Below the pieces are notes generated by a model. The model made no database searches. It had not been told where the DNA came from and was given only the letters and a program-made list of their open reading frames with translations. Both the position numbers and the translations under genes were made by a program. DNA of 32,912 bases from Nitrospirota bacterium (GTDB lineage: Bacteria > Nitrospirota > Nitrospiria > JACQBW01): assembly GCA_016178585.1 (NCBI GenBank), contig JACOTA010000013.1, positions 67,183-100,094 on the forward strand, in the 5' to 3' direction. This document shows positions 12,686 to 22,788 of the stretch, piece by piece. Positions within the stretch are counted from its first letter, which is position 1; each line of letters starts with the position of its first letter.

Positions 12686-13843
12686 TTAACGGGGATTTTT
12701 GCGTCTTTCATGTTTTTCCGGGTCGACCGGAAGTTGAATGATAAAGGTTGTTCCTTTTGATAAAACAGATTTGACATTAATGAATCCCCGATGCTTGTCA
12801 ATGATGTCATGGCAGGTCATCAAGCCTAAACCGGTTCCGGCTTCTTTGGTGGTAAAAAATGGATTAAACAGTTTTTCCATATTTTCTTCGGAAATTCCAA
12901 TGCCCGTATCGGAAATGGAGAACTGGACGAAATTTTCATCCAGGTTTGCCGTTTTTATTGTGATAAACCCTTCAGAAGCAGCATGGATGGCATTTAAAAT
13001 TAAATTAATTATCACCTGTTTCATTTTTTCAATATCGAGGGAAATAAGGGGCAACGCTGAGATAAACTCTCCCTTGATCAACAACTTTTTCTTCGCCGCC
13101 TCTTTTTCCAAAAGAACAATCGTTTCTTTAATTAATTTGTTTAAATCTGTTTTTACAAGGAATAACCGGGTTTCTTTTTTATTTTTCGCATAAGTCAATA
13201 ATTTAGAAACGATTTTTCGAATCCTGATGACATCTTTGGTCGCAACCTTATGAAACGTGTCCCAAAAATCGGGATCGGCTTCCGTCCTTTTCTTAGGCGC
13301 CATTTCCAGAAAAGTTTGAATGGCGACAAGAGGGTTGTTGATTTCATGCGCCATTCCTGCCGCGAGAATCCCGATGGCCTCCAACCGGTTCATTCTGGCC
13401 ATTTTCTGCATCGTTCCAACTTTTTCAGAATAAAGACCGTCCCTCTCTTTAATCAGAAAATATCTCTCGATTCCGCTCTTTAAATATTGTTTAAGTTGAC
13501 TCGGTTCATACGGCTTTTCAACGTATTGATACACCTGGCCAAGATTAACGGCATTGATGAGGGTCTTCAAATCGGTAAAAGCCGTCATCAGCATTCTAAT
13601 GATATCCGGCCGTTTTTCCATGACCTTTCGCAAAAGTTCGATACCTGTCATTTTGGGCATTCTTTGATCTGTTAAAATCAAGACGATTTCCGGATGGCGG
13701 TCAATCAGGTCAAGGGCTTCGTCCCCTTGCGTGGCGGTAAAAACGGTAAACTCTTTTTCGAAATATTTTTTTAAACTGCTGACGGCCAGATCCTCATCAT
13801 CCACGAAAAGAATCGGATACTGTTTGAAATCGATTTCAGTCAT
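12686..13843 (-). CDS. Receiver-first histidine kinase (REC-HisKA-HATPase)
   Basis: A soluble 385-residue signalling protein. The receiver (about 8-125) has the acidic pair Asp15-Asp16 in LFVDDED, the phosphoacceptor Asp59 in ILTDQRMPKMTG, the switch Thr region LMTAFTD and Lys110 in YVEKPYEP. A coiled linker leads to a dimerisation/phosphoacceptor helix with His166 in AAGMAHEINNPL. The ATPase domain follows, with N box INLILNAIHAA, G1 box SDTGIGIS, F box NPFFTT and G2 box GTGLGL. No membrane segment or DNA-binding domain is present. ATG 13843 has AAGGG at 8-9 nt. It begins 47 nt after the hybrid kinase gene, so its receiver is a natural target of that kinase. Partner assignment is inference. 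Confidence 0.9.
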   Translation of the reverse strand: MTEIDFKQYPILFVDDEDLAVSSLKKYFEKEFTVFTATQGDEALDLIDRHPEIVLILTDQRMPKMTGIELLRKVMEKRPDIIRMLMTAFTDLKTLINAVNLGQVYQYVEKPYEPSQLKQYLKSGIERYFLIKERDGLYSEKVGTMQKMARMNRLEAIGILAAGMAHEINNPLVAIQTFLEMAPKKRTEADPDFWDTFHKVATKDVIRIRKIVSKLLTYAKNKKETRLFLVKTDLNKLIKETIVLLEKEAAKKKLLIKGEFISALPLISLDIEKMKQVIINLILNAIHAASEGFITIKTANLDENFVQFSISDTGIGISEENMEKLFNPFFTTKEAGTGLGLMTCHDIIDKHRGFINVKSVLSKGTTFIIQLPVDPEKHERRKNPR

Positions 13844-13890
13844 TTTTATAACCCTTGCAGGGTGTTAAAAAAGCAACCCGTCAAAGAAAA

Positions 13891-16800
13891 TTAAAGGCTA
13901 GATTGAACGGACTGCTCGTTTGGAAGAAAATCAGGCTTAGGCTGGCTGACCGGCAACTGAATGATCATTTCGGTGCCAACATTTTCCTGGCTTTTTACGG
14001 ATATAAAGCCATGGTGGGCTTGAACGACCTGATAAGCAAGGAAAAGGCCCAGACCCATCCCTTCTCCCACGTCTCTCATCGTGAAAAATGGTTCAAACAA
14101 ATGTTCGAGTTTCTCTTTTTTAATTCCTTTGCCACGATCTTTAATTGAGATAAATACTTTTTCTCCTGGTTCTTCCCAGGTCTTAATCGACACCGGGCCC
14201 GCCCCTTCTGTGGCTTTTAAAGCATTATCCATGATCACTTCCAAAGATTGGGTTAACAAAACAGGGATCGCTTCGATGAGAGTTTCAACATGAAAATCTT
14301 TTTTAAAAATCGTTTCTTTATCCGTTGATAACCCTCCGGTTCTATCTAAGACTAAGAGCTGTCCCGCCAGGCGGGTAATTAAATTATTGATATTGACCGG
14401 CTCAAAATCAAGAGAACGGTTCCCTTCAAAGATTCGCAGACGGCCCACGACATGTTGAATGCGATCCAGCCCCTTTTTGACAATTTCAAGGGCCAGATCG
14501 GCTGATCCCATTAATTCGGACACTTCTTCCCGATGGGCTTCTAAATTCGAATCGGCCGCGATGGTCTTTAATTGATCAAGGGCTTCGGAAATTGTCTGCC
14601 AGGAGGTCTTCGTAAAACTAATCGGATTATTAATTTCATGAATCACACCCGCTACCATTACCGCCATTGCCGCCATTTTTTTTGTTTGAGCGTTTTCTTT
14701 TTCCAGCGCCTTTAATTGAAGAAGCGACCTTACCCTGGCTTTTAACTCTTCGGCATTAAAAGGTTTTGAGAGATACTCATTCGCTCCCGCTTCAAGGCCT
14801 TCGATTTTGCATGAAACATCAGACTTCGCGGTCAAGAGGATAACGGGAATATGACGGGTTTCTTTATCTGTTTTAACCTCCCGGCAAAGCTGATACCCGT
14901 CCTTTAAAGGCATCATTAAATCAGAGATGATCATGTCCGGCTTAAAGAGTTTAATCTTTTCAATTCCCTCAACTCCATTTTTGGCGGTTAAAATGAGATG
15001 GTCATCCTTAAGAATAAAGCGAATATAGGCCTGCATTTCCAGGTTATCTTCGACAATTAAAATTTGATATTTTTTATTTCCATTCTCAACCGGCGTTTCC
15101 TGTATTTCCTCCGGTTTTGATAAATCAGGCGATTGGTACAAAGCGTTTATAGAGAGCGATTTGGTTAAATCGACGTTCCGGCGTTTTTCCGCGTTCTCAA
15201 AATCCTTGACCCTCCGGTCGATTGGGTACCCGCCCTCCTCAATATTCGCAACGACCGGCAGGAGACAAACAAAAGTCGACCCCTTTCCCTCTTCGCTTTC
15301 CACCCAAATTTTTCCTTCATGAAGCTCTACAAATTCCTTACAAAGAGCAAGCCCAAGGCCGGTTCCCTGGTATTTTCGAATTGAGGAGCTATTTACCTGT
15401 GTAAACCTTTCAAACACTTTTTCTCGAAAACTTTCAGGAATACCGATCCCCGTATCCTTCACTCTGATTTCAATTTTTCCTTCTTTTTGGGCTAAAGACA
15501 CTTCAACAAGGCCATCTGGATCTGTAAATTTCAAAGCATTTGAAATTAAATTAATTAAAACTCTTTCGATTTTTTCCCTGTCAAAATAAAATTCAGGAAG
15601 GGGGAATTTGGCCAAAAAGGTTAACTTAATATTTTTCTTATCAGCCATTAAGGCAAGAGAAGAGACAATGCCCTGGGTAATCAGGCTTAAATCATATTTG
15701 TTTTTAAATAACTCCATTTTACCTGCATCTGTTTTTGCCAGATCAAGGAGTCCATTAATGAGATTCAATAAACGGAACCCGTTCGTTTTTACCATCATCA
15801 GGTTTTTTTCAAGGGCGGGAGAAAGTTCGCCATAATCTTTATTCAAAGCCATCTCGACCGGCAGAAGGATCAACGTCAACGGCGTGCGGAGTTCATGGTT
15901 CACATTGGCAAAAAATTCGGTCTTAAATTGATCCAGTTCTTTTAATTTTTCATAAGACTCTTCTAGTTCCTTTTTACGTTCAGCTAATTCACTGGTCCGT
16001 TCATCGACTTTCTGTTCCAGTTCAATAGACCATTGTTTTAGCTCTTTAGACATTTTATTGACATTGTCATAAAGCAAAGAGTTACTGAGCGCAATTGAGG
16101 CTTCGGTCTTTAAATTGGATAAAAAGTCTATATCCACTTTCGAAAAAGACTTTAAGTTATCTTTTTCTCCCAAATTGATAGCACCTATTAATTTTCCATC
16201 ATGAATTAAAGGAAGGACAATTTTCGCGTCAAATTTTTGAAAATAAGATTTTGCCACTTGACGAATGGGTTCAAATTTTGGGTTTAACTCTATCTCTTCC
16301 CATTCAATCACCCCGTCCAGTTTTCTAATACAGGACAAACAAGGGTCATCCAATTGAAGTTTTTCTTCGGCTCCAATCACCTTAAAATTCTGATTCTTAT
16401 CATCCAAAACGATAATCGTTATTCTGGAAACATAAAGCGCTTCTTTTATTTTGGTAGCAATTTTTGCGATTAAAAGATCAAGGTTTTTTAATGCCGCAAG
16501 CTCCCGCACCAATCCTTGAATAATTGCCTGCATATCATATTTTCGCCGATGAAAAATATTATCAATGCGAGGCTGAATACCTTTTACATAAGGAATTAAT
16601 AAAATAGCAAGGACCCCAACCAGCAAGCCATGTTGAAGTGGGGACAAGGTTTGTATTACACCATGCCCGAAATAAAACCCGATTCCAACTGGAATTAAAA
16701 CCAATGAAGACATACCAAGCCACATCGCTGTTTTATGGACAACTGTCCGAATATCCATTAATTGATATCGGACAATCGCATAAGTAGTTGCTCCAACATA

Positions 16801-17436
16801 AATGGGAACAGCATAAGTACCGTATTCATTTAAAATAGGCACTTTTAGATCAAATACCAATAAAAAGTTAGAACTTCCCCCTATATAACCAAAAATAGAA
16901 CTCCAGAAAAGATATCCCATCTGTATTTTTTTCGACGGTGAATTTGATTTTTTATAAGCGTCAAAAAGTTTAAAATTCCCATAAATTACACAAAAAGCAA
17001 AAAAGAAAAGCATGGGAATATATAAAGGCCCGGGAATTATCATAAAATTAATATCGGTTCTTGGAACAACCTTGGAAATCAAAAGGGGAGTAAAACAAAG
17101 AAAACTAAAAAACATACTTAAACCATAAAAAGTAAGTATTTTCAAAAAGGAAAATCTCAGCTGTAAAAGAATGGTGACGAAATGAACAAAAAGAGTTGGA
17201 ATAAAGAAAGCGCCAAATTCCGCTAATCTCCCAAGTATTAATGCACTTTTTTGATCGGAACTTGACGTAATCGAAGCCTCAAGAAAACTCCACCAGGAGA
17301 GGGAAAAACAGTAGAAAAAGAAAATTAAACCCAGGGATCTGTTTTTTGTTTTAGATAAAACGAAAAGGCCTAGAAGGAATGTAGTAAAAGAGGTTAAATA
17401 CAACCCCCCCAATAAATGATAAAGAAAAGTATTCAT
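13891..17436 (-). CDS. Membrane hybrid histidine kinase with two kinase modules (7TM-GAF-HK-REC-HK)
   Basis: A 1181-residue sensor. Residues 1-285 hold about eight hydrophobic segments resembling the N-terminal 7TM module of kinases, ending YQLMDIRTVVHKT. A GAF-like domain (about 305-455) follows, then a coiled coil (KVDERTSELAERKKELEESYEKL written here as separate heptads from 476). The first kinase has His514 in NVNHELRTP, N box LISNALKFTD and G boxes DTGIGIP and GTGLGL. A receiver (789-905) has Asp839 in IISDLMMP and Lys891. A second kinase has His933 in GVIHEINNP, N box MDNALKA, DRGKGIKK and GEGMGLGL. All key residues are present. ATG 17436 overlaps the stop of the PilZ-synthase gene (TGATG); a TTG at 17439 is possible. 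The membrane part is AT-rich. The ligand is unknown. Confidence 0.9.
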   Translation of the reverse strand: MNTFLYHLLGGLYLTSFTTFLLGLFVLSKTKNRSLGLIFFFYCFSLSWWSFLEASITSSSDQKSALILGRLAEFGAFFIPTLFVHFVTILLQLRFSFLKILTFYGLSMFFSFLCFTPLLISKVVPRTDINFMIIPGPLYIPMLFFFAFCVIYGNFKLFDAYKKSNSPSKKIQMGYLFWSSIFGYIGGSSNFLLVFDLKVPILNEYGTYAVPIYVGATTYAIVRYQLMDIRTVVHKTAMWLGMSSLVLIPVGIGFYFGHGVIQTLSPLQHGLLVGVLAILLIPYVKGIQPRIDNIFHRRKYDMQAIIQGLVRELAALKNLDLLIAKIATKIKEALYVSRITIIVLDDKNQNFKVIGAEEKLQLDDPCLSCIRKLDGVIEWEEIELNPKFEPIRQVAKSYFQKFDAKIVLPLIHDGKLIGAINLGEKDNLKSFSKVDIDFLSNLKTEASIALSNSLLYDNVNKMSKELKQWSIELEQKVDERTSELAERKKELEESYEKLKELDQFKTEFFANVNHELRTPLTLILLPVEMALNKDYGELSPALEKNLMMVKTNGFRLLNLINGLLDLAKTDAGKMELFKNKYDLSLITQGIVSSLALMADKKNIKLTFLAKFPLPEFYFDREKIERVLINLISNALKFTDPDGLVEVSLAQKEGKIEIRVKDTGIGIPESFREKVFERFTQVNSSSIRKYQGTGLGLALCKEFVELHEGKIWVESEEGKGSTFVCLLPVVANIEEGGYPIDRRVKDFENAEKRRNVDLTKSLSINALYQSPDLSKPEEIQETPVENGNKKYQILIVEDNLEMQAYIRFILKDDHLILTAKNGVEGIEKIKLFKPDMIISDLMMPLKDGYQLCREVKTDKETRHIPVILLTAKSDVSCKIEGLEAGANEYLSKPFNAEELKARVRSLLQLKALEKENAQTKKMAAMAVMVAGVIHEINNPISFTKTSWQTISEALDQLKTIAADSNLEAHREEVSELMGSADLALEIVKKGLDRIQHVVGRLRIFEGNRSLDFEPVNINNLITRLAGQLLVLDRTGGLSTDKETIFKKDFHVETLIEAIPVLLTQSLEVIMDNALKATEGAGPVSIKTWEEPGEKVFISIKDRGKGIKKEKLEHLFEPFFTMRDVGEGMGLGLFLAYQVVQAHHGFISVKSQENVGTEMIIQLPVSQPKPDFLPNEQSVQSSL

Positions 17437-18977
17437 CAAAATCTTAGCCCTACAATTCCAATGCTAAAACCAGCGGCCACACCAAGAAATAATATTTTAT
17501 CTTCAGGTTTTACCCTATTGGCTTTAATTGCTTCACAAACAGCAACTGGCATACTTGCGGTGGCAAGATTTCCATATTTTGGGAATGTCCAAAAAAGTTT
17601 CTCGGGAGCAATCCCTAAGGTTTTATGATATAAATTTTCGGTTAATGTAACTGGAATTTGATGTGGGAAAACCATATCAATTGAGGAAACTGACCAACCA
17701 AGTTGATTTGTGATTTCCTCAATTCCCTGAGGAACACATTTTATTGCTGCTTTTTCCAGATCTAATCCTTCAGATCGAAAGAATTTATTATGGGAATTAA
17801 AACCCTCTAACGTCCCTGCTAAAGCTAATCTCCAATAAGAACTTTCCGTAGAAAACCATCGTCCTTGGATTCCCCTATTTTCTCCTGTTTTAGTCCGGCT
17901 CATTACGGCCGCTCCTCCGGCATCTCCAATCGTGTATGAAAAAATGTTTAATTTAAAATCCTTCTTAGTCTTAGGTGCCCAATCTATGGCTATTGAAATT
18001 TTTTCCCCGGACACCACTATGCCATTCTCACATCGGCCGGAAGATATCAAGCTATCCAACAAATCTATAGCAGAGACAAAACCATTACAAGCATTGGTTA
18101 AATCAAAAGAATAAGCATTTTTTGCCCCAATTTTATCTTGAACCACAACCGCTGTTGCCGGTTCATCGAAATCTTTTGAAATTCCGCAGAAAATAATAAC
18201 ATCTAGATCCATCGGGTCCATACCTGCATTCTTTAAAGCCTCTTCTGCCGCGAGCGCAGCTAAATCGGAGGGATAAACATCTGAATCTGCATACCGTCTG
18301 GATTTTATTCCCGTGAGAGCTTCAACTACTTCGCCTACGTTTTTATATCCCTTGGCATTAACCCTTAGGTTAATATCCTTTGCTAGAATTTCATTAGAAG
18401 GGAGAAAGGATCCCCATCCTATAAATTTAGAAGTGTGAGCGGAAGAACGGCGAGACTGTTTAGATTTTCCCTCTAGCTTTGAGGTATCATCCAATTTCTT
18501 TTGGGAAATGATAATATTTAAAACAGATTGATCTTTAGTGTATGGGTTTTGTTTTAGTTCTTTTACGGCAAAATCCAATATTTTTTGTTCCCATTCCCGA
18601 ATCTCAGAAAATTTAATCCCAATTGAATTTCCGCGACAAGAAACAATAAGCCCTGATATATTCAAATTACACACATTTCCAAATGAAAATTGAAGCGTTA
18701 TCGGAGTGTCTATCCTTAATTTCATGTCACAGATTACAAGAAGGCCTGTCGGACTGATATCATGTGTATATCCTCGTATCTCTTTTTCTTCTATCTGTAA
18801 ACTTACGGGAATTTTAAAAACTTCCCGCTCATGGCTACGAACTTGAGAAGATAACCGCCGCCGATCCTCAGAAACAACCATTTCCTGCCCTCTTTGCTCC
18901 GTTTTTCTACGATCATTGAACTCAACATTGGTATTCTGCTTTCGTCGCTCATAGTTTTTACCATTTTTAGATGCCAT
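17436..18977 (-). CDS. PilZ domain fused to a KASIII (FabH-like) condensing enzyme
   Basis: A 513-residue fusion. A basic N-terminus rich in DRR/ERR (1-46) precedes a PilZ-like domain (about 47-140). It shows both c-di-GMP-binding signatures, R47-xxx-R51 and D73-x-S75-xx-G78 in THDISPTGLLV. After a polar linker, residues 183-513 form a complete thiolase-fold KASIII domain. It has catalytic Cys297 in DLTNACNGF, His439 in VFPHQI and Asn470 in KYGNLATAS, plus the terminal Gly-rich FLGVAAGFSIG. This triad is that of decarboxylating condensation of acyl-CoA/ACP with malonyl-ACP. It lacks neighbours from fatty-acid synthesis and is coupled to the membrane kinase gene. AGAGGA lies about 10 nt before the ATG. 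The product is unknown; a lipid-like signal or a membrane-lipid precursor is inference. Confidence 0.88.
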   Translation of the reverse strand: MASKNGKNYERRKQNTNVEFNDRRKTEQRGQEMVVSEDRRRLSSQVRSHEREVFKIPVSLQIEEKEIRGYTHDISPTGLLVICDMKLRIDTPITLQFSFGNVCNLNISGLIVSCRGNSIGIKFSEIREWEQKILDFAVKELKQNPYTKDQSVLNIIISQKKLDDTSKLEGKSKQSRRSSAHTSKFIGWGSFLPSNEILAKDINLRVNAKGYKNVGEVVEALTGIKSRRYADSDVYPSDLAALAAEEALKNAGMDPMDLDVIIFCGISKDFDEPATAVVVQDKIGAKNAYSFDLTNACNGFVSAIDLLDSLISSGRCENGIVVSGEKISIAIDWAPKTKKDFKLNIFSYTIGDAGGAAVMSRTKTGENRGIQGRWFSTESSYWRLALAGTLEGFNSHNKFFRSEGLDLEKAAIKCVPQGIEEITNQLGWSVSSIDMVFPHQIPVTLTENLYHKTLGIAPEKLFWTFPKYGNLATASMPVAVCEAIKANRVKPEDKILFLGVAAGFSIGIVGLRF

Positions 18978-19342
18978 ATATTCTTTTTCCTCTTATCAGA
19001 TTACTAATACCAATCAGTTGACAAAAAAATTAAAATTGCAAAATAAAAAAATGTAATGATAAAAAAGGTGAGATAGGATTCTGCCGAGACTTCTTTTTTT
19101 TGATGAAAAAAGAACATAATTCCTTACTTCAAATAAGAACTTAAACCGGACTAACAAAAATGTAGGCTATTTAAATAAACTCCTTAAAGAATATCAAAAA
19201 CCTTTGATTTGTCAAACAAAATCAAGGCATTTTACTTTTAAAATTTTAAAAAATTAGAAAATTTTAGATGGAAGGTTAAATTTTTGTTTCTCAATTTGTA
19301 ACAAAAAAATACAAAATCCGTCAGCCGGTTTAAACAAAACAA
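18978..19342. other. AT-rich intergenic region before the PilZ-KASIII gene
   Basis: About 365 bp without a credible ORF, far more AT-rich than its surroundings. It should hold the promoter of the PilZ-KASIII/kinase operon; TTGTCA at about 19017-19022 is a possible -35, but no good -10 is spaced from it. A weak short CCG/CGG stem followed by T-rich sequence (about 19317-19333) may end ilvD. A poly-A/poly-T inverted repeat lies at about 19091-19113. I see no RNA gene. Confidence 0.5.
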
Positions 19343-22242: not shown

Positions 22243-22788
22243 TCAGTGGAGCCTTCCCAGAACCTGGACGGTGCTTGCCTGAGGCCCCTTTTCTCCCAGT
22301 TCTTCCACGAAACGGACATCAGATCCAACTTTCAAATGCTCAAAATTTCCATTTGAAACGCTGTTACGATGGAAATAAACTTCGCGTCCGTCATGGGTTT
22401 CAATAAACCCATATCCTTTTTCTGGAAAGAGGCGAATAACCTGGGCGACCGGCAACACCTCTCCGTGGGTCTTCACAACGCCCCGCTGACGCCGGTCAAA
22501 TTCTTCCAGTTGACGCCGCGCGGCGTCAAAGGCGTCCCGAATGGAAACATAGACATCCTCATGCGCTTCCCGCCTGATAATGAACTCCTTGCCTGGAACG
22601 GTCAAATCAATCCGGACGTTGTATAACACCCCCTTCTGCTGGTGTCGGTGAGGAGCATCTACCACCACCCGGCAACCGGTAATGTTAGGATAAAGAGAAT
22701 CAAGATTCGCCGCCTTTTCCCGAATATCTATCTCAGCCGCCTCGGAAAGCGAGAGATTGTGGACAGTGATCTGTAATGGTATTTTCAT
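22243..22788 (-). CDS. HPF/RaiA ribosome-hibernation domain fused to a cold-shock domain
   Basis: A 181-residue two-domain protein. Residues 1-105 form the HPF/YfiA fold: MKIPLQITVHNLSLSEAAEIDI, CRVVVDAPHRHQQKG, YNVRIDLTVPGKEFIIRRE and YVSIRDAFDAARRQLEEF. Such domains bind the 30S decoding centre and stop translation in stress. Residues 113-181 form a cold-shock OB domain with RNP1-like KGYGFI (124-129) and RNP2-like VYFHRNSV (137-144). It therefore has a nucleic-acid-binding tail in place of the dimerising long-HPF tail. A GGAGG lies 7-8 nt before the ATG. It follows hsp20 by 26 nt and ends at a strong terminator, so both are probably stress-induced together. Confidence 0.92.
   Translation of the reverse strand: MKIPLQITVHNLSLSEAAEIDIREKAANLDSLYPNITGCRVVVDAPHRHQQKGVLYNVRIDLTVPGKEFIIRREAHEDVYVSIRDAFDAARRQLEEFDRRQRGVVKTHGEVLPVAQVIRLFPEKGYGFIETHDGREVYFHRNSVSNGNFEHLKVGSDVRFVEELGEKGPQASTVQVLGRLH

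Follow-up and report, generated by a model that had tools for sequence, protein, structure and literature searches.

A PilZ-KASIII synthase gene paired with a seven-transmembrane hybrid kinase gene in a Nitrospirota genome: a probable small-molecule signalling cassette with an exchangeable enzyme-sensor pair

In the Rpf/diffusible signal factor (DSF) system the synthase RpfF is of the crotonase type, the signal of the Phc system is a 3-hydroxy fatty acid methyl ester, and in the agr pherotypes the synthesis functions and the receptor N-terminus vary together on a conserved kinase C-terminus and regulator, with cells of a pherotype answering only to their own type of signal. The PhcB-PhcS-PhcR-PhcQ system of Ralstonia has the order synthase, membrane kinase and a soluble protein that joins a receiver (REC) domain to a histidine kinase and has no DNA-binding domain (PMC8578825), and in ComQXPA the synthesis genes and the sensor part of ComP vary, the cytoplasmic part and the regulator being conserved (PMC4008528). 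For the Nitrospira group of nitrifiers, acyl-homoserine-lactone signalling was the only kind found in the literature searched (PMC8553950). The locus described here lies on a 32,912-nucleotide (nt) stretch of a Nitrospirota bacterium (assembly GCA_016178585.1, contig JACOTA010000013.1, positions 67,183 to 100,094), the whole of which is called the window. As read directly from open reading frames (ORFs) and domains, it is a minus-strand unit of three genes encoding a beta-ketoacyl synthase III (KASIII) fused to a PilZ domain, a hybrid double histidine kinase with a seven-transmembrane (7TM) sensor, and a protein with REC, HisKA and HATPase domains and without a DNA-binding domain (REC-kinase). 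The three genes probably constitute a small-molecule signalling cassette resembling PhcB-PhcS-PhcR, in which a synthase tuned by cyclic di-GMP (c-di-GMP) and a 7TM kinase acting as its cognate receptor form an exchangeable pair.

The likeness to PhcBSR is one of layout, with the synthase gene right ahead of the membrane kinase gene and a REC-kinase gene adjoining. The window synthase is a PilZ-fused KASIII and not a methyltransferase such as PhcB (a methyltransferase occurs only in the relative G495), the window kinase is a hybrid with 7TM and GAF regions, and no phcA-like regulator is present at the locus. Relatives with a simpler kinase resemble Rpf/DSF (RpfF-RpfC-RpfG) in that the unit ends in REC-HD-GYP, an output of the c-di-GMP phosphodiesterase type; the window locus has no HD-GYP gene, and its synthase is a KASIII and not a crotonase. 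A resemblance to Cqs/Lqs systems, proposed in a preliminary description of this DNA, stands in so far as CqsA/LqsA-CqsS/LqsS also set a small-molecule synthase beside a multi-pass kinase. Direct membership was rejected because the synthase domain is a KASIII, as that description had itself recognized and as the ACP_syn_III domains bear out; an enzyme of the CqsA superfamily, a pyridoxal phosphate-dependent PilZ-alpha-oxoamine synthase, was found only at a second locus of G497. Judged by gene order and domains, PhcB-PhcS-PhcR is the nearest layout, with Rpf/DSF nearest for the relatives carrying REC-HD-GYP, rather than Cqs/Lqs. The ComQXPA and agr pherotypes are like this family in that synthase and sensor part vary jointly at one locus while kinase and regulator are conserved, but in the present family the exchange involves entire enzymes that are not homologous to one another, and there is no peptide.

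Among 270 genomes of the class, a PilZ-KASIII gene was found in eight, and all eight of these genes are followed directly by one for a kinase whose 7TM sensor is of the same type. Searching the phylum with the complete protein retrieved full-length relatives in G181 (61% identity) and G141 (49%); profile searches of the class added G400, G499, G412 and G402, as well as G406, whose copy lies at the edge of a contig. Synthase and kinase genes are separated by -4, 7, 19, -1, 0, 16 and 269 nt in the seven full-length cases. A sensor profile (A5) built from the seven sensors at these PilZ-KASIII genes gave eight matches above 340 bits in the 270 genomes, seven of them at the PilZ-KASIII genes and one an orphan in G496, and the next match, of 184 bits over a partial stretch, was G406, the eighth KASIII locus. 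Conservation of the pair had been named beforehand as a check on the signalling idea and was found throughout; with the pair recurring in seven other genomes and the catalytic residues intact, the cassette is, on comparative grounds, not a chance arrangement. A REC-kinase is also the third gene in G181 and G499, but in G141, G402 and G406 its place at the end of the unit is taken by an NtrC-type regulator and a REC-HD-GYP protein. The earlier remark that neither fatty-acid genes nor a DNA-binding output lie near the cassette holds in the window but does not extend to these relatives, which carry such regulators beside the same synthase. As a separate observation, the orphan KASIII-type 7TM kinase of G496 (L075 4558-8478) may be an eavesdropping or relic receptor.

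The comparisons within a genus are decisive for the argument that enzyme and sensor are matched. The kinases of G499, with KASIII, and of G496 from the same genus, with acyl-CoA dehydrogenase and other enzymes, differ almost only in some 220 residues at the N-terminus; identity is 20-30% across the first 200 residues but 90-100% across the last 900, and the REC-kinases of the two are 94-100% identical. In DNA, the sequences on either side are 92-96% identical, and the stretch without homology coincides exactly with the enzyme and the 7TM region (L074 9505-11940). G495, which has a third enzyme and another membrane domain, fits the same pattern. Between G402 (KASIII) and G404 (TenA) the core is 92% identical overall and the sensors 20-30%, and the G404 sensor is 77% identical to that of G335, which is of another family and has the same enzyme type. 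The exchange pattern was repeated between G406 (KASIII) and G237 (LuxD-like hydrolase-methyltransferase), so that enzyme-swapped pairs from three genera have sensors 20-30% identical on cores 84-100% identical.

This was confirmed across 25 kinases, in which the nearest neighbour of the sensor had the same enzyme in 21 of 22 cases, as against 5 of 22 for the core, and belonged to the same family in 13 of 21 cases, as against 19 of 21 for the core. Sensor identity was 52% for pairs with the same enzyme and 31% for pairs with different enzymes (p=5e-5, likewise with labels shuffled within families, in permutation tests that treat related kinases as exchangeable). KASIII, LuxD-methyltransferase and TenA sensors form one clade each (SH-aLRT 99-100), and enzyme type changes 6 times on the sensor tree versus 13 times on the core tree. 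Within the KASIII loci, synthase identity follows sensor identity (r 0.88), also when the core is given (partial r 0.87, p=0.003). On this evidence the 7TM sensor and its enzyme belong together as one pair, matched and exchangeable, whereas the kinase core follows taxonomy; both the covariation and the exchange in DNA strongly support the initial suggestion that the synthase sits beside its own sensor. Since the sensor changes only along with the neighbouring enzyme, it would most simply be the receptor of that enzyme's product.

The KASIII domain of the window resembles FabH and OleA in its Cys-His-Asn triad, and differs from FabH in its PilZ fusion, in the absence of a fab cluster at the locus and in its lost carrier contacts. 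W32, R36 and R249, which in FabH contact CoA or carrier protein, are kept in 25 of 25 FabH sequences and are replaced in all eight PilZ-KASIII by V, by L and by T, S, H or P, respectively. The position of FabH Phe87 is Glu in 8/8 PilZ-KASIII and in 0/25 FabH; judged by residue spacing only, this Glu272 probably takes the place of the catalytic Glu117 of OleA, which is supplied by the partner subunit. Hydrolysis of p-nitrophenyl esters is an activity of OleA and not of FabH (PMC7064751). The eight PilZ-KASIII come out in a tree as a single group with full support, separate from the 25 FabH, and the canonical fabH of the same genome lies in a plsX-fabH-fabD-fabG-fabF cluster on another contig (contig 16 of G000). 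The window KASIII is therefore, by sequence, a specialised paralogue and not the housekeeping FabH. FabH is nevertheless its nearest solved structure by sequence, and the domain falls below the cut-offs of both NCBIfam models, of FabH and OleA type (179.6 of 285 bits for the OleA model PRK09258). A search with the OleA family model gave no match, control genomes included, and is uninformative; a one-sequence pattern scan of the genome contigs returned FabH-like proteins only, a plasmid search gave no record covering 80% of PilZ-KASIII, and AlphaFold2 gave too poor a model of PilZ-KASIII from the alignment (mean pLDDT 54) for it to serve in a fold search. Given the loss of the carrier-protein contacts and the Glu at the probable place of OleA Glu117, condensation of two acyl-CoAs or similar substrates would be likelier than that of acyl-CoA with malonyl-acyl carrier protein (ACP). 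None of the seven full-length KASIII members has lost the PilZ motifs, so that c-di-GMP probably tunes synthesis through this domain.

When only the PilZ module was used as the query, this module or one like it was found on other enzymes, again ahead of a membrane kinase. These include PilZ-PilZ-FabF with an ACP-PilZ-thioesterase in G327, PilZ-TenA/PqqC-like proteins in G335, G404, G409 and G496, PilZ-HMG-CoA reductase in G307 and at second loci of G181, G495 and G496, and LuxD-like hydrolase-methyltransferases in G237, G410, G143, G055, G135 and others, with PilZ recognized in all but G135. At the exchange locus, G496 has PilZ-acyl-CoA dehydrogenase and an aldehyde dehydrogenase in which a pair of motifs resembles that of PilZ. 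G495 has a PilZ-methyltransferase there; over the methyltransferase portion it shares 31% identity with a protein from a Paraburkholderia plasmid, encoded in a methyltransferase-kinase-REC-REC operon, which is the phc layout. The alpha-oxoamine synthase of G497 scored higher with BioF/Kbl (415 bits) than as an autoinducer synthase (243 bits). The PilZ-module profile gave no match in the class to which a Desulfobacteraceae genome belongs (241 genomes), in a search without a positive control.

Several neighbouring observations concern these loci. REC-PAS-PilZ is fused to a (LuxD-)methyltransferase in L078 (9037-12402), L040 (11697-13913) and L098 (8467-12300), and in L078 and L040 the fusion lies just upstream of PilZ-KASIII, possibly as a second tailoring enzyme for the same signal. 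In genus g4 (L091, L092 and about 25 further genomes) a conserved 7TM kinase of about 1012 aa follows a PilZ-LuxD-methyltransferase gene in both loci read, which suggests that this enzyme class is the commonest of the family. A second locus of G499 (L090 9414-16039) carries PilZ-HMG-CoA reductase, kinase and REC-kinase genes broken by stops and frameshifts, which are intact in G181, G495 and G496. A free-standing 4HBT thioesterase gene of G495 lies between two 7TM sensor genes (L094 5755-11803) and may be an enzyme-sensor pair without PilZ. The single 1641-aa frame of G293 that joins PilZ-LuxD-methyltransferase to a 7TM kinase (L096 6383-11308) has a frameshift-like junction and was not used as evidence.

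For the chemistry, the ligand, the c-di-GMP control, the phosphotransfer and the action between cells, we infer the following course. The PilZ-KASIII would condense acyl thioesters to a beta-keto-acyl-type, fatty-acid-like lipid signal, with its output set by c-di-GMP through the PilZ domain, and the 7TM domain of the adjoining hybrid kinase would bind the product. Phosphate would pass from the hybrid kinase to its own REC and on to the REC-kinase, as proposed for PhcS and PhcR. In relatives, enzyme and sensor are replaced jointly by other pairs on a nearly unchanged chassis of kinase and regulator, and the HD-GYP outputs found there would close a c-di-GMP loop. By analogy, the cassette would belong in kind to synthase/sensor-kinase quorum sensing.

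Three other explanations were weighed against this signalling cassette. Intracellular lipid homeostasis is the main rival: the enzyme would make or modify a membrane lipid and the 7TM kinase would monitor its own membrane, with nothing passing between cells. Most of the enzymes found use acyl, isoprenoid or other CoA-linked substrates, and a 7TM sensor could read membrane composition; however, quite different chemistries on one unchanged chassis suit an exchange of signals better than a single homeostatic need, and fixed-locus exchange of such a kind is known from quorum-sensing pherotypes (PMC4008528), which leaves homeostasis unlikely. The kinase might otherwise read an environmental cue and the enzyme be its output, each enzyme-sensor pair being a metabolic module. 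This is improbable, although enzyme and kinase are co-transcribed by layout and PilZ would serve as a second control input for the enzyme, because the coupled fine-scale divergence of KASIII synthase and sensor suggests contact through one molecule and because layouts of known autoinducer synthases recur. That an ordinary KASIII of fatty-acid initiation adjoins two-component genes by chance, an outcome specified in advance as telling against signalling, is very improbable: it could draw on FabH as the closest solved structure, but is contradicted by the canonical fabH cluster elsewhere, the contacts lost in 8/8 and the conserved kinase neighbour.

Some observations nevertheless count against the signalling cassette. 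A sensor of membrane-lipid state would give equal covariation, the window holds no exporter and no dedicated ACP, and at the G496 locus a KASIII-type sensor kinase occurs with no KASIII gene. The HMG-CoA reductases are 59-63% identical and their sensors only 27-39%, without clustering; the sensor of the G307 reductase is nearest to TenA-type sensors, so that the class rule is imperfect. The canonical PilZ motifs are absent in 6 of 22 enzymes, none of them KASIII. With these points included, the signalling cassette is still the preferred reading of the window, and the family may, on balance, represent a general quorum-sensing chassis in which at least eight non-homologous PilZ-fused enzymes, with motifs mostly intact, are block-exchanged with cognate 7TM receptors and c-di-GMP enters at synthesis and sometimes, via HD-GYP, at output.

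The features of the locus are listed in Table 1.

Table 1. Features of the PilZ-KASIII/kinase locus (window positions; aa, amino acids).
Feature	Position	Strand	Basis
PilZ-KASIII synthase gene, 513 aa	17436..18977	-	ORF; PilZ and ACP_syn_III/ACP_syn_III_C (Pfam); full-length relatives 45-63% identical
PilZ domain, aa 45-131	18585..18845	-	Pfam PF07238, E 1.2e-13, 51.7 bits (cut-off 22.5)
c-di-GMP motif RxxxR (RSHER, aa 47-51)	18825..18839	-	R47 and R51 invariant, 7/7 full-length PilZ-KASIII
c-di-GMP motif (D/N)xSxxG (DISPTG, aa 73-78)	18744..18761	-	S75 and G78 invariant, 7/7 full-length PilZ-KASIII
KASIII (thiolase-fold) domain, aa 182-513	17439..18434	-	Pfam and PDB sequence matches
Glu272, position of E. 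coli FabH Phe87, probably of OleA Glu117	18162..18164	-	alignment; OleA match from residue spacing only
Catalytic Cys297	18087..18089	-	aligned with E. coli FabH C112
Catalytic His439	17661..17663	-	aligned with E. coli FabH H244
Catalytic Asn470	17568..17570	-	aligned with E. coli FabH N274
TGATG stop/start overlap, synthase/kinase	17434..17438	-	read off sequence
Membrane hybrid double histidine kinase, 1182 aa (TTG start) or 1181 aa (ATG start, 17436)	13891..17439	-	ORF, domains
7TM sensor region (HisKA_7TM)	16750..17400	-	Pfam PF16927, E 4.6e-8; KASIII-type, 370 bits to sensor profile A5
GAF-like region	16081..16485	-	GAF_2/GAF_3 matches under cut-off
First kinase core (HisKA with H515, HATPase)	15253..15924	-	domain search; H-box read off sequence
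Receiver domain	14728..15063	-	Pfam PF00072, E 1.5e-25
Second H-box (HEINNP) and second HATPase	13945..14640	-	domain search, sequence reading
REC-HisKA-HATPase protein, 385 aa, PhcR-like layout	12686..13843	-	ORF, domains; orthologues in G181, G495, G496, G499
Spacer to ilvD, 25% GC, putative promoter region of unit	18978..19342	.	base composition

The unit lies in a genome of 2.45 Mb between ilvD upstream and relA/spoT downstream. ORFs and sequence agree with the three genes, the TGATG overlap and the gap of 47 nt between hybrid kinase and REC-kinase genes given in the preliminary description, and Pfam domains with its KASIII with PilZ, membrane hybrid double kinase and REC-first kinase. Since the synthase stop overlaps the ATG at 17436 as TGATG, this ATG, and not the TTG at 17439, is most likely the start of the hybrid kinase. 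The 7TM part has a GC content of 33%, so that the membrane part had rightly been called AT-rich, but incompletely, the whole cassette being at 33-40% versus 44-51% in the adjoining genes; this is compatible with acquisition from outside, without proving it. Elsewhere in the window (22243-22788) a small protein combines a ribosome-hibernation (S30AE) domain with a cold-shock domain.

In the open-access literature searched, no publication came up that connects PilZ to ketosynthase, histidine kinase and quorum sensing, and none that connects a PilZ domain to HMG-CoA reductase. To our knowledge, three things are new: the KASIII synthase, the fusion to PilZ, and the joint exchange of non-homologous enzymes with a receptor domain. 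If the signalling reading is true, the cassette would represent an undescribed cell-cell signalling family in this class, which by its gene content resembles the Nitrospira group, with a ready list of matched enzyme-receptor pairs, and c-di-GMP would be linked directly to signal synthesis. For many orphan 7TM histidine kinases, the adjoining enzyme would then predict which class of ligand they bind, and the family would supply a natural set of sensor modules that can be interchanged on one kinase, as well as a testable case of signal chemistry changed without rebuilding the pathway.

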